DNA of 64,000 bases from Onchidella celtica (Eukaryota > Mollusca > Gastropoda > Systellommatophora > Onchidiidae), in assembly GCA_963931925.1 (NCBI GenBank), contig OZ007570.1, positions 26,897,804-26,961,803 of the forward strand, written 5' to 3'. A program made the position numbers and the translations under genes. Under the pieces are notes generated by a model. The model made no database searches. It saw only the letters and a program-made list of their open reading frames with translations, and was not told the DNA's origin. Position 1 is the first letter of the stretch; each line of letters opens with the position of its first letter. This document shows, one piece after another, positions 2-34,008 of the stretch.

Positions 2-527
2 TGTAGCGTCCCACTAGTTGAACGATCGATATTTTTCTTCCCCCTGCATGACGCGTCTCACTCGGCGACCTTCCTTCCCCCCCCCCTCTCGCCAGCAAGG
101 CCGGTATTTCCCTTTGATGTCGCTGTGTGGCTTGTTTGTCTCACTGTAGAAAATCCAGAAGCGTCTGGAAGATACTGCAGTGTCCGAGATTACGCTAGGT
201 CGACCTTGAGTGATGTAATGCTGTGACGTGTCTGTGTACGATTGGGTGGCCTGTATGTGTCCCGAACGATCTAGGTCTGTCTCGTGCTTATGGGGCGGTA
301 AAGCCGCTTCCTGAACGTTCCTGGACAGAATATATATAAGGAGGGCCAGGCGAGTAGGATGGGGTGTGCAAACCATGGATGCAGGTCGTAGGTGTAAATC
401 TAGTCGTGGTCAGATATATTATAGTGCCTTCCCTGCTAGGTGTAAGTAACTTGTGGATATCAGCTTGTGTTTACAGTTATTAAAGTTAGTATTAATTGTT
501 CATCGGATCCTGTTATTTATTTCTACA
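2..527 (+). mobile_element. Possible solo or terminal LTR of an LTR retrotransposon
   Basis: The stretch begins TGTAG at base 2 and ends CTACA at 523-527, which gives short inverted termini of the TG...CA type. Inside are a TATA-like TATATATAAG at 331-340 and an ATTAAA about 150 bases later at 479-484, the order expected for U3, R and U5. No primer binding site was recognised after base 527, and no retrotransposon polyprotein or second copy is in the window. The left flank is outside the window, so a target duplication cannot be checked. It could equally be a chance arrangement of unique DNA. Confidence 0.35.
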
Positions 528-843
528 ACAGTTCGAGACAGTTTCGTTTTTTTAAGGGGTAGACGATCAGTTCATCTGACTCTCCCCATCATAACGTGCT
601 GAAATTTGCATCAACTGTTACACACAACCACACAAGAAAAGTATCAAATAACTAGAGCGTATATCTATGTCAGGCCGGTCAGGCCATCTTATTATTTAAA
701 TATTAATAAACAAAACAAAAGACAATAGAGGTATATTCAAAGCAATAAATTCTAATTACTAACTTAATCTATGATATTCATGTAACTATGGTTCCTTATT
801 GGATGTACTGCAATCAATAGCAAATGGGTATATTATACGAAAC
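528..843. other. Unannotated AT-rich stretch before the first LINE
   Basis: No gene, repeat or convincing ORF is visible. It is plain AT-rich sequence up to the target duplication of the RTE-like element. Confidence 0.6.
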
Positions 844-3800: not shown

Positions 3801-4467
3801 TCAAAACAAAGGTACTCGTGTACCAAACTTGCGTCCTAAGCACCCTGCTGTATGGCTCAGAGACATGGACCACCTACTCCAAACATGAAAGATCCCTCAA
3901 CTCCTTCCACCTGCGCTGCCTACGCAAAATTCTCAAGATCAAGTGGCAAGACAGGATCTCAAATATCGAAGTTCTGAGCCGAGCCAACATTCCATCAACT
4001 CAGGCTCTCCTAGGCAAAAAAAGACTGCGGTGGCTTGGACATCTCCACCGTATGGAAAATGATCGCATCCCCAGACAAATTCTCTACGGGGAACTTGCTA
4101 CTGGCAACCGACCCAGAGGTAGGCCACATCTGCGATTCAAAGACACTTGCAAGGTCACGATGAAAGCATTCAACATCGACCCCAATGAATGGGAGAACCT
4201 TGCAAATGATCGAAGCAGATGGAGACAAAAATTGCGCAGTGGCACGCTCGCAATAGACTTCAAGGCAAAAGAAACATACCTGACAAAACGACAGAGGCGG
4301 AATGAAAACACTCGCCAAAGTGAACCCAAAAGACTGACCTGCAATCACTGCCATCGCACTCTCGGGTCAAACATTGGTAGAATAAGCCACGAGAGAAGCT
4401 GTCAGTCAAAGTGAAAGTGAATATTCTAGCTGCTAAGACCGTCTGTAAAGACGCTAAAGGCCATATA
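856..4467 (+). mobile_element. Full-length RTE-like non-LTR retrotransposon (about 3.6 kb)
   Basis: The element is bounded by the exact 12-bp duplication TAGATATCAATC. It holds a 5' leader of about 340-430 bases, one long ORF coding for an AP endonuclease and reverse transcriptase, and a very short 3' tail of about 50 bases after the stop. It ends in an AT-rich run rather than poly(A). A compact single-ORF body and a very short 3' UTR fit the RTE superfamily. The uninterrupted ORF and perfect duplication suggest recent insertion. Clade assignment below RTE-like was not attempted. Confidence 0.88.
1283..4414 (+). CDS. RTE-like LINE ORF2: AP endonuclease plus reverse transcriptase, intact
   Basis: This 1043-residue protein nicks target DNA and copies the element RNA into it (known role of the family). 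From the N-terminus there is an AP-type endonuclease (about residues 1-245) with QETR (E38), LGDFN (143-147), a HQLDLIL segment (211-217) and the catalytic-type DTDH (238-241). A linker follows, then a reverse transcriptase with NNYRGISLLS (544-553), FVDLTKAFD (613-621), VKQGCVLAP (672-680) and FADD (734-737), the last holding the two catalytic aspartates. The C-terminus carries C1020-x2-C1023-x12-H1036-x3-C1040, a probable zinc finger. The first ATG is at 1283, but the reading frame is open from 1199, and the residues just before the methionine read GTWNVRT. That segment contains the conserved endonuclease asparagine, so real translation probably starts upstream at a non-AUG codon. No frameshift or stop is present. 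Confidence 0.9.
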   Translation: MRPGLQQQDLTNIDSIRKSQIIDRELQLLNIDIAALQETRLPDSGSVKEENYTFFWQGLSSEQPRIHGVGFAVKNSLINSIATPIGVSERIMTLRLNTRSGFTNIICVYAPTLTSSDETKDIFYEALQRTLHNIPLTEGLLILGDFNARVGADHSAWPKCIGHFGIGNINENGQRLLELCSVNSLCVTNTYFDLKRCQRTSWRHPRSGHWHQLDLILSRRKSLGCIKITRSLHSADCDTDHALVVSKIKISAKKIYRSKAPSIPKINVTAIRDESNRKSFEKLFAESMDNVTQCDSVDETWNTLSSKIHDCAIKSFGQHKVSNNDWVAQNSKILLPLIEQKKSAFNEYNKNCNQSTKTCLKNAKAKLQLEVRRCANKYWTDLCNSIQEANEKGDMKTAFSQMKVALGPIITKSAPLKSVNGEPITDKNEQLNRWVEHYSLLYSTEKNIPPDFEEHLQKLPIMGELDAEPSLVELSNAIDHLSAGKATGSDNIPAEVLKDLKGPLLPHLYNLLLQCWKEGVIPHDMRDAKIVTLYKNKGDKGDCNNYRGISLLSITGKAFARVILCRLQQLAEKVLPETQCGFRSKRSTIDMIFALRQIQEKCKEQNRPLITCFVDLTKAFDTVSRSGLYAVLKSIGCPPTLLKLIASFHTDMRACVNFEGCTSNSFAVNSGVKQGCVLAPTLFGIYFAALLKNAFGQCSGGVLINTRVDGSIFNVARLKAKSRTEHIMLQELLFADDAAIVAHDETTLQALINSLAKACDKFMLKISVSKTVVLTQGLRNPNPIMLNGSPLEQVGKFCYLGSTISGSTDITTEINARIGKAATAFGKLSKRVWNNSKLTIKTKVLVYQTCVLSTLLYGSETWTTYSKHERSLNSFHLRCLRKILKIKWQDRISNIEVLSRANIPSTQALLGKKRLRWLGHLHRMENDRIPRQILYGELATGNRPRGRPHLRFKDTCKVTMKAFNIDPNEWENLANDRSRWRQKLRSGTLAIDFKAKETYLTKRQRRNENTRQSEPKRLTCNHCHRTLGSNIGRISHERSCQSK

Positions 4468-11080: not shown

Positions 11081-12790
11081 CTAGTTTGTCTGAAAGAAAT
11101 GGGTCTTCAGATGGCGTTTGAAAGAACCAATGTCATTAATTTCCCTGGTTGTCTTTGGAAGAGTGTTCCAGATGGTAGGGCCAAGAAATGAAAAGGACTT
11201 TTCTCCTACAGTGGACAGATTCATTTTAGGTACTTTCAATTTTGTAGTGTCAGATGATGATCTTAGTTGACGAGATGGAACATAGTAATCAGTTAAATCA
11301 ACTAGGTACGATGGAGCAGTATTATTGACACATTTGTGACAAACGGATGACAATTTGTACATTATTCTTTTCTCGACTGGCAGCCAGTGCAAACTCTGCA
11401 GAAGTGGCAGTGCTGAATCTCTTTTCTTTTTCTTCAAAACAAGTCTCGCTGCATTGTTTTGAGCAATTTGGAGTTTTCTAATATTTTTTTGTGAAATTCC
11501 AGCCAAAAGGGAGTTGCAATAGTCAAGCTTTGAAAGTACAAAAGAATTTACTAAAACAGCCGCAGTTTCAGTTGAAATAAGATGTCTGATTTTACCAATT
11601 TTCCAGATTTCCATGTATAGAATACGAATGAGGTGACTAACCTGAGACGACATAGAAAGATTTGAATCAATGTAAACCCCTAGGTTTTTTACTTTTTTTG
11701 AAATTTCTATTGAATTAGTGCCAATTATCATCTCAGTTCTGTCCACTTCTTGCAGAACCCGCTCACGGCCTAATAAAATAACCTCAGTTTTATCCTCATT
11801 TAGTGCCAGTTTGTTTTGGTTCATCCAGCTTTTAATTTCTGTTATACAGTTTCCAGCCTGCTGCAGAAGGCTGTCAACATCGCATGGCAAGGCAGAACTG
11901 TAGAGCTGGGTATCATCAGCATAGAAATGATATTGTAAATTAAATTTCTTTATTTCATGTACAAGTGGAATAGTATAGATAGTAAACAAAATAGGACCAA
12001 GCACTGAGCCTTGTGGTACGCCATACTGAAGCGCATAAGAAAAAGATCTTATTTTGTTGGTTACAACAAATTGGTGGCGATTTGACAGGTAAGATTCGAC
12101 CCATTTAAGGGCGACCCCTCTGATTCCAAACGATGTTTCTAGCCTTCTGAGCAGGATTTCGTGATCGATGGTGTCGAACGCTGCTGATAGATCCAACAAA
12201 TTTAGCAGAGTAATATTTCCAGAATCTGCCTTTACTAATATGTCATTCATGATTCTTAATAGTGCAGTTTCAGTACTGTGGTTACTTCTGTAAGCAGATT
12301 GAAATGGTTCCAACAGGTCATTATTTCTCAAATGACACATTAGTTGTTGTAATATCACCTTTTCAAGGATTTTTGAAAGAAAAGGAAGGTTTGAGACGGG
12401 TCTATAATTTTTCAACATATTTTGATCAAGAGTCGTTTTTTTCAAAAGTGGTGTTACCCAGGCTGTTTTAAAATAATCAGGGACAGACCCACTTAAAATA
12501 GAGTTGTTTATTATTTTTGTAATAGTTGGAACCAGTTCATCAATACAAGATCTAACCAAAAATGTAGGAATAGGATCGAGGTCACAACATTTTGATGGCG
12601 ATGCCATGATGATAGATTTTACAGATTCATTCGACACAACACCAAAAGTGTCTATAGGATTTCCCTGAAACTCATCAAAATGATCAATGGCATCAAAACT
12701 GTCAAGATTTTCTCGGATAGTTGTAACTTTTTTATCAAAATAATCAGCAAAAACATTGGAAATTGTTCTCGTAAATTGTGGGTAGAGGTG
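11081..12790 (-). pseudogene. L2-like LINE reverse transcriptase (3' part of a frameshifted ORF2)
   Basis: The frame is open from 12901 to the stop at 11081, but meaningful homology starts near 12790 with residues like ISNVFADYFDKKV. The reverse transcriptase motifs are clear: [62 protein letters not shown] and YADDTQLY with the catalytic aspartate pair. The C-terminal GPTIWNTLPKTTR...FKRHLKTHFF is the usual end of CR1/L2 group proteins. The preceding endonuclease frame is offset by one base, so this piece would not be translated with it. Catalytic residues remain intact. Confidence 0.85.
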
Positions 12791-15661: not shown

Positions 15662-17215
15662 TCAGTTTTTAAAAAGAAATGTTTTTAACCTGTTTTTAAA
15701 TATGTTTAGAGAGGCAGAATTTCGAACCTCTTGTGGTAAAGAATTCCACACACAGGGACCAAAACAACTAAAAGCTCTATCTCCATAATTTGATGTTTTA
15801 CACCTGGGAACAACCAGTTTGTTTTCTGTAGTAGATCTTAAAAATCTATCAGACTCATGTTTTTTCAAAAGTTCCGAAAGATAGGAGGGAGCTGAACCTT
15901 CAAGACATTTGTAAACCAAAACTGCAGCTTTAAATTTTATTCTGTTTTCAACAGTAAGCCAGTGAAGTTGGTCAATAAGGCTTGAGGCAGATTCTCTTTT
16001 TGATTTTCTAAAAATCAGTCTAGCTGCATTATTCTGAATTATCTGAAGGCGTTTTATTTTGTTGCTCGGAATTCCAAAGAGCAGAGAGTTACAATAATCA
16101 AGCTTTGAAAACATAAGTGAAGTGATAAGTATTCGAGTTGCCTCTTGGGATATGAATGGACGAATAGAGCTGATGTTTTTTAATTGAAACATTAATGATC
16201 GACATAATGAACTTATTTGATTTTCCATGCTGAGATCTGATTCTAAAATTGTGCCTAAGTTTTTAACTTTATTCACGTTTGCTACAGTGCTTTCACCAAG
16301 ATTTAATTTTACATTTTTAATTGCAGTAATTTGTCTTTTCTTTCCAATAATCATAACTTCTATTTTGTCTTCATTTAGCTTTAGTTTGTTTTGGTTCATC
16401 CATTCTTTTGTGTCCATAATACACTTTTCACTATCTTTTATAACATTGTCAACATGACCTAAAGTCGTACCAGGGTGATATAGTTGGACATCATCAGCAT
16501 ACTGATGGTAATAAAAACCATGATCTTTAAAAATATTAGACAGGGGCCCAATGTACATAATAAAGAGAGTAGGACCTAAAACTGAGCCTTGTGGAACACC
16601 ATATGGCAGTATGTATTCTTTTGATTTTATGTTATCTGTTACAACAATTTGTTTTCGGTCACATAGATAGGACCTGAACCATTTCAGAGCTATACCAGAG
16701 ATCCCATAGGTTGCTTCTAATCTGCAAAGAATAATTTCATGATCTATGGTGTCGAAGGCAGCTGATAGATCAAGAATGTTTAAACACGAAACCAAGCCCT
16801 TGTCCAGTAATCCAAACAAATCATTAACAATCTTCAATAAAGCAGTTTCAGTGCTACAATTTGCACGATATGCTGACTGGAATGATTCACAGAGAGCGTT
16901 ATTGTTTAGATGACCAAGTAGTTGTTTTAAAATTACTTTCTCTAAAATCTTTGATAAAAATTGAAGATTAGATACTGGTCTATAGTTTTTCAAGTTTTCA
17001 GAGTCAAGATTAACTTTCTTAAGCAAAGGTTTAACGAGTGCAACTTTATAGGTCTCTGGCACAGCACCTGTACATAAAGAAGTGTTAATAATTTTTGTGA
17101 TGGATGGTAAAAGATCAGGTAAGCATTTTTTTAACAAGTCTGTGGGCATGGGATCTAGTTCACATTGCTTAAGATGTGTAATTTTTACCAGGATATGCAC
17201 AGCAGCCAAATGCAT
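15662..17215 (-). pseudogene. Truncated L2-like reverse transcriptase, open frame
   Basis: This 517-codon frame is open from its fortuitous ATG to the stop near the element 3' end. It carries [82 protein letters not shown] and the terminal [14 protein letters not shown]...[10 protein letters not shown]. The endonuclease domain is absent, so it cannot retrotranspose by itself. No internal stop or frameshift is present, which implies a fairly recent insertion. The start codon lies at or beyond the truncation point and is not the original start. Confidence 0.85.
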
Positions 17216-30076: not shown

Positions 30077-30080
30077 AAAC
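30077..30080. repeat. Left 4-bp target duplication (AAAC)
   Basis: AAAC immediately outside the left terminal inverted repeat. The same four bases follow the right terminal repeat at 34005-34008. Confidence 0.6.
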
Positions 30081-30110
30081 CGCGGGTGGTATTGATTAGG
30101 GACGTAAGTC
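30081..30110 (+). repeat. Left terminal inverted repeat of the transposon
   Basis: Thirty bases, identical to the reverse complement of 33975-34004. Similarity fades immediately inside. Confidence 0.88.
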
Positions 30111-31004
30111 CAAATTTGGGCTTTCCCGGGTTTTTTCATATTCTTGAAGACCAGGTTTTCCCGCATTTTTTAAGCTGGTAGCGGTACCTCTAGGCCTTTT
30201 ATTTGCGAAGTTATTTCAGTTTACTCAATGGACGTATGTTTATATGCTTTAAGATATTCTTTGATTACAGTCGTATGAGTACTTACGGCTTTGATTAATT
30301 GCTTTTCTCTCGAAGCACAACCAGAATAGGCATTCATACAGTCGTATGGTTGCTTACGATACTAATCAAAAACCTTCTAGTGCCGCAAAGTACACCATCC
30401 CTTCATACAGTGAGTGTCACGTACGTCCATGCTCAAATGAAGATCAAGGCTGGAGGATGGCTGGTCGCCTTAAAATGTGTCCCAGAGGTATCACATTTTC
30501 GAGAAAAGCCCCCAAACGTCCATGGTTTATTATCTGTATTAGTATGATGCACTTGAGATTTTATCAGCGCTTTATTTTTTACGTTACGATGATGGCGATT
30601 TCTAATGAAAGATTAGTTTGTTAACTATTTTGTGTGTCTACAATTCACATGCAAAATATGAGCAAGATTTCTGTTGTACTCTTTGATTGCTCTGCGTTTG
30701 GTAGGAACTAGTTCCAGCTTAACATTATGAAAAATTTAAGAGTTGGATAGGTAAACGATACGCAGGGTATCTACCGCCAACTGTGGTCAAACTGCCTTTA
30801 CCTGCCTACGGCATTTGGATGAAGGGGAGGGGTGTTCTAAAGAGAGACAGAGAGAGAGAGCCAGAAGGAGAGAGTGAGGAACACACACACACTGACAGGG
30901 AGAGAAAGTGAAAAAAAGATGGGGGCAGAGAATACTAGAGAAGTTTCAGTGGAAAATTAATCCAGCAGTGCCTATCATGTTATTTAGGTCCTTGATCTTT
31001 GGAG

Positions 31005-31290
31005 GCAGTGTAGGCGAGTGGCTGGTGAGCTGCTCTCATGAGGCAAACGCCTGTTTCATTGAAGGGCGCATGAAGGTTCATTTCATCAGTAGGCCGTGTG
31101 CACCATTAGGTCCTTGATGAGAAAGACACTGTATTCTCGGTGTCCCTACTGGACTCAGATGCAAAAGGCGGCGATGTGGGGTATTGTCCAATGTTAGTGT
31201 TCAGAGCCTTGTATGCTCCCTGGGGAGCCAAGATTATGATAAAGTGATTATGCCTGCTGAGGTAAAAATGTGGGGGCATTTAGAATTTTA
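31005..31290 (+). mobile_element. SINE-like insertion inside the transposon
   Basis: A box-like TAGGCGAGTGGCTGGTGAGC at 31011-31030 and a weak B box AAGGTTCATTTC at 31073-31084. The 42-base spacing would allow a Ser/Leu-type long variable arm. The downstream part (GGTCCTTGATGAGAAAGACA onwards) resembles the tRNA-unrelated body of known SINEs. The B box is degenerate, so this is only moderately supported. Boundaries are approximate. Confidence 0.45.
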
Positions 31291-31411
31291 TATGAGGAGA
31301 TGAGCACAACGTAAATGTACTCCATGTAAGAATTATTTAATTTGCCATGAATGGTTTCGTGCTGCACCAGACAGTTCCTGTCACGAACTAGAATACAGAA
31401 TGATGTTCTAA

Positions 31412-32247
31412 ACAAAAATTCTAAAGAACAGAGACTGGATATGTGCTAATTCTTGCATCACCGGAAACTACCCATTAGTTACTGATCTAGCGAAACCATT
31501 TTGGGCAGAAGGTGAACAGTGCGAAGTGGAGATTTTGGATTCTTTTTATGGATTGACGTCAACAGCTGCGGCTCCTTTCATTTCTTTGTTAGAAGCCATT
31601 AGAAACTGTGACAAGTTCAGTATTGTAACCATCGGCTCCAGCACACCTGCCTACTCATGTGGGCTAATAAAGACTGAAGACAGAAATACGTCTTTGATTC
31701 TCATGCCGAGATGGGAATGTCAACAGCCGATGGGAAGGCAACATTGTCTGTGAATTCCTACAACGGCCTCGAGTTGTTCTCTAAGGTAGTGGACCTCACT
31801 TCCTACAGGTGACGGCGACCTGTTCGAGTTAACACTGGTGAATATTAGGTGCCCTTCACAAGCTGACACAGGTCCATTCCATGAAGTTAACCATGAAGGC
31901 GAGAGTCTGCCAAGAATTGCACCTTGCTGACTGATTGTGAAAAATTCCTCTCAGACATTTGAAAAAAGGATCAAGTGGAAGAGCAACGTAACAGACAACA
32001 GCAAGAGCAAAGACAAGTAAAGGAGCAAGGCCTGAGAGCCTCAGAGGAGACTCCTGTGCAACGAGGCAGCAAACATAGAGCAAAGAGGAGTCTGGAAGAA
32101 TTCCTCTTGATGGAAGACGACAGCTATTTCCTCCCTACTCCAAAGAAAAAACATGTCGGAAAAAGGGTTCCACCTTTGGTTCTTTCCTCCACCCCACTTC
32201 CAGACAACCAGTTCAGCAGAATACCTTGTCAGTCCATTATTGCATAA
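31412..32247 (+). pseudogene. Decayed transposon ORF with a protease-like Asp-x-His segment
   Basis: Three frames each carry plausible protein. Frame one (31412-31700) reads ...YPLVTDLAKPFWAEGEQC..., then ...SIVTIGSSTPAYSCGL. A second frame continues with YVFDSHAEMGMSTADGKA and LELFSKVVDLTS to about 31809. A third reads GDGDLFELTLVNIRC and FHEVNHEGESLPRI to about 31925. A glutamine-rich, basic tail follows from 31975 (EEQRNRQQQEQRQ..., PTPKKKHVGKR, a possible nuclear localisation signal) to the stop at 32247. The FDSH...G pattern after a strand-like SIVTIGSST recalls cysteine protease folds seen in transposon and viral proteins, but this is only a resemblance. At least two frameshifts and an in-frame TGA at 31960 make it non-functional. 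Confidence 0.4.
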
Positions 32248-32436
32248 TAGACAAGAGCCTGTGCCTTGCGACTTTAATGATCCAGGTCCTGTTCGAAGAA
32301 GGCAACTGCGTCTTTAATATAATCAAGCGAAAGAGGAATCGCGGAGAGGAGTATATTTCAAGAAGTGGAAACACTGTTAAGGCAAGAGAGACGAAGGCAT
32401 GATGTGAGCGATTTAGGTACAGATGCAAACGCAATG

Positions 32437-32651
32437 TAAGTGGAAGTCAGAGGGAAGAGATTTTCCATGGTTCTGACAGCTGGCTTGCAATGTGACTTCA
32501 TCAGTCGTTCAGAAGTGTGTAAAAATCGAGTGAAGGCCGCCGGAGATTCACGTAGGAAGCGTACATTAAAATGGAAATTCGAGGTACATTCAGTGGATGT
32601 TGAGGTCTGCAAAAAATGTTCCCTGCTATCAGGAAGGACGGCAGCGTTTTG
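32437..32651 (+). pseudogene. Decayed ORF fragment with a Lys/Arg-rich VCKK motif
   Basis: A short open frame with GLQCDFISRSEVCKNRVK, RRKRTLKWKF and VEVCKKC. The order of a basic RKRxL segment followed about 15 residues later by VCK resembles a recurrent segment in uncharacterised invertebrate transposon proteins that I recall only loosely. It lies within the TIR element downstream of the other decayed ORF and may be the C-terminal part of the same gene. Too little remains to assign a function. Confidence 0.3.
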
Positions 32652-33371
32652 AAAATATTATTATGTTTCTGATTTAAACATCTGCACACCATTCCTACTT
32701 TGTATCTGTGCATAAATTTAGCCTCCTGCCAATCTGCTTGGGTTAAACAATGGCGTAACGTTTCCACCACACCAGTTAAGTACACTTAAATGCTGTAGGG
32801 GCGGATAGGAAGAATCCTCATACTACAAGTAGATACCCTTTGGATGTTCGTATGTTATATGATAAAAAGTAAATACTGAATGGGGCCAGTTGGCAGTGGT
32901 GTTGTGACACATTCATGCAGTTTCGTCAAATATACATGAAACTAAAGTTCGTATTAAAACTTGAAATGTTATAATGTAAATAATAGTTATTACGTATTGT
33001 GAAAGTGTGTCCCCAGGCGTCAGTTGTAGCTTCTGCTCTTTAGGGAGACTGAGAGGGTGGATGACGGCGTCATGTCCTGCATGTGAATGAATGTGTGAAT
33101 GATAATACAAATTGGAGGGAAGAGCGAATAGAGTCTGACAGCTCCCCCCAATTTGTTACTTACATTATATTGTTTGCTAATATGTCACTACCACTTGATA
33201 TTGTTACTGCGTTGATTAGTTTCACTATATCCCTCCAACAATCACCATGGGCCTTGTGGTGCGGTCTCAAAGTTGCGTCATCATCGAACTTGACAGACAG
33301 CATTTGAATCCGGATAGCACGTAGAAGAGCATGAAAGCGAATGCCAACGCAGCCCCTTTCCCTTTCAAATG

Positions 33372-33600
33372 CCGGCTGGGTAGCCCGATGCGTGGAGGTG
33401 CCCCCCCCCCCCCCGTGGATGCAAAGGGTCTGAGGTTCGATTGTCAGTTGGGCTCAGATTTTTCTGAGGTGCCTCTGGCCCTGCCAACCAGTGACGGTAC
33501 GCCCGCGGAAGGGCCAAGTCTTTTCTCCAATGTAACCGTTATGGTGATTAAGTGGGACGTACGACCCAAACCCAATCCCTTTCAAATTGAAAAATCAAAG
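33372..33600 (+). mobile_element. tRNA-derived SINE inside the transposon
   Basis: A box TAGCCCGATGCGTGGAGGTG (33381-33400), a C run, then B box GAGGTTCGATTGTC (33432-33445). The head is followed by an unrelated body ending around AAGTGGGACGTACGACCC and AAACCCAATCCC. The C run in the anticodon region and the lack of an acceptor stem exclude a working tRNA. Confidence 0.55.
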
Positions 33601-33974
33601 ACGAATGAAACCACAAAGGTGTCTTGTTATAGTCAAATAAATAGTAGAGTTGTACTTTAGTTGCATGTCCTCGAAAGGACACCAAAGCCGATTAAATATG
33701 GCAATGCAACAGACGTAATTTACGTCTCTGAGAAATGACTAACTTCGGGTATAACTGGGTCGTAAGTAAACTTACACCTGTAATCAAAAACTCTTTTCTA
33801 ATTTGCAAGTGACATAAGTCCTCGCTGTGGAGAACAGGTGGTTCCAGCATAAAACGAGCAAGCTGCAGTGTCACGCAACACTAATTGTCACATTCACACA
33901 AAAGTTGGAAGCGATTAAATAGAAAATGAGTAAATGCGGAAGTTTTTTTCGCTTCCTGAAAAATGGCCAAAAGT

Positions 33975-34004
33975 GACTTACGTCCCTAATCAATACCACC
34001 CGCG
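33975..34004 (-). repeat. Right terminal inverted repeat of the transposon
   Basis: Exact reverse complement of 30081-30110, followed by AAAC. Confidence 0.88.
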
Positions 34005-34008
34005 AAAC
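34005..34008. repeat. Right 4-bp target duplication (AAAC)
   Basis: Matches 30077-30080 outside the left terminal repeat. Confidence 0.6.

Follow-up and report, generated by a model that had tools for sequence, protein, structure and literature searches.

We scrutinized a 64,000-nt stretch of the genome of the gastropod Onchidella celtica (GCA_963931925.1, contig OZ007570.1, positions 26,897,804 to 26,961,803 of the forward strand; hereafter the window), in which a DNA transposon, here called W, occupies positions 30081-34004. The host genome was searched (1.14 Gb, 43 contigs, with W located on contig 4), and L-numbers denote other copies and relatives of W found there. W is bounded by terminal inverted repeats (TIRs) of 30 nt that are 100% complementary, separated by 3,864 nt and flanked on both sides by AAAC. 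Arm pairs of this type are expected about 8e-12 times by chance in a stretch of the window's size. With the 24-base W TIR and up to 3 mismatches, 69 sites were recovered compared with 0 for the reversed control; 60 of these pair into 30 elements (27 of 3,784-4,303 bp and three of 5.2-5.4 kb), and 9 have no partner at the same threshold. The left 231 bases of W gave at least 40 matches (40 of 52 candidates scored). Every one of the 21 copies read, namely W and 20 others, had both TIRs with matching 4-bp flanks, and the tetranucleotide varied widely from copy to copy. These counts bear out the original prediction, which held that perfect 30-bp TIRs with a matching AAAC flank were improbable by chance and proposed the TIR search as the check. 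If W were instead an accidental inverted-repeat pair in old repetitive DNA, a reading for which no supporting point was found, the chance expectation, the TIR sites, and the duplications would all be left unexplained, and its probability is negligible. W is a real transposon, confirmed by its TIRs and AAAC duplication.

An empty site was found for copy L011, whose joined flanks, less one AGCT, align with L015 at 169/179 bases (94%) without a gap; a second stretch of L015 resembling the L011 flanks has a 9-base gap close to the site. Pairwise difference averages 1.1% among 14 copies including W and 1.5% within a second group of six, while L020 diverges from the two groups by 3.5% and 5.2%, and the W family appears to have amplified recently. 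The longest open frame among the 21 copies is 208 aa. Because all of them carry the same large internal deletion and have disrupted frames, the family would have spread after its coding capacity was lost and without a transposase of its own, so that the enzyme was presumably supplied in trans. On its own, W is an unremarkable non-autonomous derivative, and the interest lies in the family behind it. Elsewhere in the family, L028 carries ~1,260 bp absent from other copies (element position ~460-1720), probably a nested insertion. Two TIR sites at C14:32512832 and 32532609 and their adjoining family segments show the same 19,777-bp spacing, suggesting a local duplication that included a copy.

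What W lost is evident from a closer relative, L035 (5,432 bp, TGAT duplication), the ends of which match the 30-bp TIR of W at 30/30 and 28/30 bases. The two elements are colinear at 81-87% identity, apart from two stretches missing from W, ~240 bp (L035 1268-1507) and ~1,530 bp (L035 2892-4422), and ~350 bp that W has in addition near its right end. At the small deletion, L035 base 1267 is the last one aligned in 21/21 copies, and alignment resumes at 1507-1517 in 20/21, L020 resuming later. The large break begins at L035 2891 in 21/21 copies, and the stretch spanning its junction is likewise present in 21/21; resumption at 4420-4423 is visible in 15/21, the remaining six offering only pieces below the 300-base filter at that point. 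The protease Cys codon, at L035 1486, lies inside the smaller missing segment, leaving W without the Cys nucleophile, and the large deletion removes the motifs of the DUF7869 region. Relative to the 973-aa protein of L030 (P0001), which served as the reference, the remnants in W correspond to residues 70-183 and 407-548 at 40-57% identity, and no other part was matched. The Asp-x-His segment of W reads FDSH (31693-31704).

Intact relatives were reached through a wider genome search with the outer 18 bases of the TIR, which gave 118 sites compared with 20 for the control and led to three ~5.1-kb pairs. These pairs, L029-L031, form a family with 4-bp duplications whose members are 98.6-99.7% alike, and a single open frame encodes 973 aa in L030 and 964 aa in L031. 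The third family (L036-L041, 4.9 kb) has TIRs of ~45 bp beginning CGCGGGCGGTATTGCAT and frames of 922 aa in L036 and 917 aa in L037 and L038, those of L039-L041 being broken. The fourth family, L044 (5,253 bp), has an imperfect TIR of ~42 bp beginning CGAGGGCCGCC and a frame of 1014 aa, which was free of stops at all 14 of its listed places. The frame of L035 has one internal in-frame stop. Across the four families, element ends read CGCGGG or CGAGGG, TIRs measure 30 to ~45 bp, and the target duplication is 4 bp in 32/32 bounded elements. When the targets of these 32 elements were symmetrised, C preceded the duplication in 38/64 cases and A was its first base in 39/64, a preference for C|ANNT|G. 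Downstream of the large frame, all three 5.1-kb copies have another open frame, of 129 aa (L030 ~269-655, minus strand), and a 593-bp pair of related ends at C5:6497739-6498331 is possibly a miniature inverted-repeat transposable element of the same group.

At the N terminus, the intact relatives carry a domain of the viral tegument-like deubiquitinase (VTD) type, with predicted deubiquitinase activity. Pfam Herpes_teg_N matched residues 29-170 of the L030 protein at 29.3 bits (cut-off 25), with 29.3 bits for L031, 25.4 for L036, and 38.6 for L044, and was matched in 5/5 members scanned. Against the PDB, a profile of the N-terminal domain retrieved the Helitron deubiquitinase 8ADD (E 7.5e-4), a herpesvirus large tegument deneddylase (2.2e-3), and M48USP (0.029); two further matches, one of them an unrelated GTPase, had E >0.4 and were discarded. 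The VTD family is defined by an invariant Asp-x-His motif and has been reported from Helitrons, herpesviruses, and other sources (Erven et al., PMC9741609). Here, GRQC and FD[PS]H are conserved in L030, L035, L036, and L044, representatives of four families with 37-53% overall identity. Identity between families is 40-54% in the VTD domain (five pairs), 37-64% in the Cys-rich middle, 40-65% in the core, and 44-62% in DUF7869 (three pairs), and 21-36% in the linker between the VTD domain and the middle region. For the three pairs computed, the proportion of synonymous differences in the VTD domain (pS) was 0.70-0.87 and that of non-synonymous differences (pN) 0.26-0.34, with a linker pN of 0.48-0.51; synonymous sites being near saturation, the VTD figures show constraint and yield no reliable ratio.

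Such a domain raises the question of whether the element is a remnant of a Helitron or Helentron. VTD domains are known mostly from Helitrons, where the majority of the non-viral ones sit (PMC9741609), and the best PDB match above is itself a Helitron VTD. The Helitron and herpesvirus domain (PF04843, PMC9741609) is, by Pfam and PDB-profile match, the same protease domain, with Gln-Cys and Asp-x-His kept, and the Helitron version is likewise transposon-borne. However, that version sits with a Rep-helicase in rolling-circle elements, whereas here the domain is N-terminal to DUF7869 in TIR elements that make 4-bp duplications. These ends contradict a Helitron origin, and the 973-aa protein gave no match to a helicase or Rep family at E <=10 (the HMMER filters drop most matches >0.1), making a Helitron remnant very improbable.

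The C-terminal half of the L030 protein matched DUF7869 (PF25273) at residues 745-872 with 42.8 bits (cut-off 26), the only Pfam family above its cut-off with a transposon-like region in this protein. The domain shares a frame with the protease in the intact relatives and was matched in 4/5 members scanned, the fifth being L035, which was given only to its stop and whose other piece has DUF7869. PF25273 is by name a domain of unknown function; here, a region scoring above its curated cut-off is found inside intact, TIR-bounded mobile elements. From the acidic motifs conserved within DUF7869 and ahead of it (FDL, SD-x-CGGQNRN, and GHS-x-NE-x-D-x-x-H), we infer a putative DDE/D RNase-H-like transposase. 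NCBIfam and a PDB sequence search gave no match to the 973-aa protein, and no relatives of the DUF7869 region were confirmed in viral contigs or in bacterial and archaeal genomes.

Across the Onchidella genome, at least 150 DUF7869 places (150 of 306 candidates scored) and at least 33 Herpes_teg_N places (E <=0.001) were found, and neither family matched in any of 14 control genomes. The Herpes_teg_N count is a lower bound because L035 and the L036 family are absent from the 33. At 27 of the 33 places listed, DUF7869 is matched on the same strand, 2.08-2.30 kb further downstream. Internal stops interrupt two Herpes_teg_N places that lack a neighbouring DUF7869 (C5:67529785 and C15:32948701), and these two may belong to other transposons, e.g., Helitrons. 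Conversely, a DUF7869 family represented at seven places of 840-841 aa (e.g., C12:15698553-15701075, the first part of which is L045) has no visible VTD domain in the 316 N-terminal residues read, which suggests that the protease is an optional module within a broader DUF7869 group. That VTD is dispensable for some DUF7869 elements is what would be expected had the segment been captured by accident and served no function, as is the FDPN that L029 has in place of FDPH. Against an accidental capture stand the pairing of the two domains at 27/33 places, the conservation of Gln-Cys and Asp-x-His between representatives of the four families, and the excess of synonymous over non-synonymous change in the VTD domain. 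We consider it unlikely.

Sola transposases are DDD enzymes. Compared by their descriptions, Sola1-3 share with the elements described here both the 4-bp duplications, present in 32/32, and a length near 5 kb. The intact relatives could accordingly be members of the Sola superfamily with an extra N-terminal domain, only that domain being new. In two amoebozoans, published Sola2 elements encode an 888-aa transposase and have 4-bp duplications that are AT-rich (PMC3627910), and the mean length of bivalve Sola1 elements is 5,445 bp (PMC10294476). The AWWT target pattern given for some Sola2 (PMC3627910) differs from C|ANNT|G and fits only 5/32 duplications, a weak objection with Sola compared by description, and we rate membership in Sola at just short of an even chance. 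Ginger1 is also a cut-and-paste transposon with a 4-bp duplication and a transposase fused to a ubiquitin/SUMO-type cysteine protease (PMC2836005). Unlike our elements, in which the protease is N-terminal and no integrase family appeared among the Pfam matches of the 973-aa protein at E <=10, Ginger1 has a Gypsy-integrase core and a C-terminal OTU or Ulp1 domain (PMC2836005). Its ends (TGTNR) and targets (CCGG, CCGT; PMC2836005) contrast with the CGCGGG/CGAGGG ends and C|ANNT|G targets found here, 0/32 duplications fit the Ginger1 targets, and Ginger1 is excluded.

Overall, the original prediction is partly supported. The decayed interior with an Asp-x-His protease-like segment and the basic, Gln-rich stretch that it described were recovered, and the accessory protease-like protein that it suggested has its counterpart in the intact relatives. 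The implication that the interior lacked a transposase by nature did not survive, the DUF7869 part having been deleted from W and being in frame in those relatives. As to the superfamily, which it could not place, the candidates it named now stand without Ginger1 and with Sola still in contention.

Features of W are collected in Table 1. CGTAA/TTACG occurs 7 times in the outer 700 bp of W (both ends), compared with a density in the middle of 0.65 per 350 bp. Within the family-specific 350-bp segment, the part at 33427-33560 has five full copies outside the W family at 76-81% identity and looks like a tRNA-derived short interspersed nuclear element caught before the family spread; ARAGORN and Rfam gave no match to it. 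An Rfam scan of W and the whole window and a tRNA search gave no match. When eight pieces of W were compared with Pfam, zn-ribbon_14 (E 0.022) and PH_FAN (E 0.079) were the sole matches, both far below cut-off and rejected. Outside W, two 50-base stretches of the window (11976-12025 and 16554-16603), 80% alike and 4.6 kb apart, resemble pieces of dispersed repeats.

Table 1. Features of W and its immediate flanks (window coordinates)
Feature	Positions	Strand	Basis
Left target-site duplication, AAAC	30077..30080	.	Sequence, flank comparison
Non-autonomous DNA transposon, 3,924 bp	30081..34004	+	Same ends bound 21/21 copies read
Left 30-bp TIR, CGCGGGTGGTATTGATTAGGGACGTAAGTC	30081..30110	+	Inverted-repeat match, genome copies
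Left subterminal region with three CGTAA/TTACG motifs, candidate transposase-binding sites	30103..30358	.	Motif count
Small-deletion break, ~240 bp of L035 (1268-1507) missing, including the protease Cys codon	31354..31366	+	Alignment to L035
Decayed deubiquitinase-like domain, P0001 residues 70-158, 41.6% identity	31415..31681	+	Protein comparison
Decayed deubiquitinase-like domain, P0001 residues 161-183 including Asp-Ser-His, in another frame	31687..31749	+	Protein comparison
Gln-rich, basic linker remnant	31963..32244	+	Translation; in the intact proteins, conservation is lowest in the linker
Decayed Cys-rich basic middle region, P0001 residues 407-548, 40-55% identity	32295..32691	+	Protein comparison
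Large-deletion junction, ~1,530 bp of L035 missing, including the whole DUF7869 region	32624..32629	+	Alignment to L035
~350-bp segment carried by the W family, absent from L035	33218..33569	+	Alignment to L035
Right 30-bp TIR, perfect complement of the left arm	33975..34004	-	Inverted-repeat match
Right target-site duplication, AAAC	34005..34008	.	Sequence, flank comparison

Taken together, W is very probably an internally deleted, non-autonomous cut-and-paste transposon whose ancestor encoded a VTD-linker-Cys-rich middle-DUF7869 protein and which was mobilised in trans by an intact relative. The ancestral protein would have had a VTD domain at its N terminus, then a variable linker and a basic, Cys-rich middle that is probably DNA-binding, and at its C terminus the DUF7869 region as a putative transposase. 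Deletions in the W lineage would then have removed the entire DUF7869 region and the end of the protease that bears the Cys. Thereafter, the transposase of a related intact element may have recognised the W TIRs and subterminal repeats, with the Cys-rich middle region as the part that would bind the TIR and the CGTAA/TTACG repeats, and would have excised W and moved it into 4-bp C|ANNT|G targets in a recent amplification. The VTD domain might strip ubiquitin from the transposase or a partner, shielding it against ubiquitin-dependent removal, an idea that follows proposals for Helitron VTDs (PMC9741609) and, more generally, for the OTU and Ulp1 domains of Ginger1 (PMC2836005).

Several results weigh against this account. 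On the side of the protease, L037 (24.6 bits) and L035 (23.6) fall just below the Herpes_teg_N cut-off of 25 and scores are modest overall, and L029, in addition to its FDPN where L030 and L031 have FDPH, has a broken frame. On the side of the transposase, a profile of the DUF7869 region gave no credible fold match in the PDB, RNase-H/DDE folds included; the best match, to unrelated dehydrogenases (E 0.068), was rejected. The pairing of the two domains is incomplete, with no DUF7869 match near 6 of the 33 listed Herpes_teg_N places and no Pfam domain, VTD included, in the 316 N-terminal residues read of the 841-aa family. With respect to mobilisation in trans, no element combining W ends with an uninterrupted frame was found among the relatives, and the intact L030/L031 family matches the left TIR of W at 24/27 outer bases at best. 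TTACG repeats are absent from the left ends of L037 and L044, and a genome search for the empty site of W matched only its own two flanks.

Protease domains are carried by several unrelated transposons, including OTU or Ulp1 in Ginger1, Ulp1 in Mutator, and OTU in Helitrons (PMC2836005), as well as VTD in Helitrons (PMC9741609), and their role is so far a matter of proposals in both papers. The main text of PMC9741609 uses the word 'transposase' once, for Helitrons that lack a classical one, and mentions without detail cnidarian VTDs fused to transposon-associated domains. Among open-licence papers, with Repbase outside this scope, we found no TIR transposon with a VTD domain and no VTD-DUF7869 pairing; searches of the same literature for DUF7869, Herpes_teg_N, PF04843, or tegument deubiquitinase together with transposon or transposase returned only PMC9741609 as relevant. 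Tentatively, and with less confidence than we place in Sola membership, the VTD-DUF7869 elements might form an undescribed lineage, possibly a superfamily with CGMGGG ends and C|ANNT|G targets, in which the transposase brings its own herpesvirus-type deubiquitinase to protect the transpososome from removal by the ubiquitin system.

The occurrence, in several families of one genome, of intact fusions between a herpes-type deubiquitinase and a putative transposase places DUF7869, a domain of unknown function, in the setting of TIR-bounded elements. The related 841-aa family, in which no VTD was seen, offers a natural plus/minus pair for judging what the protease contributes to transposition. The range of possible donors of the herpesvirus tegument deubiquitinase also grows: if the proposed lineage is real, TIR transposons would, beside Helitrons, be a candidate reservoir of the deubiquitinase taken by herpesviruses and other genomes.

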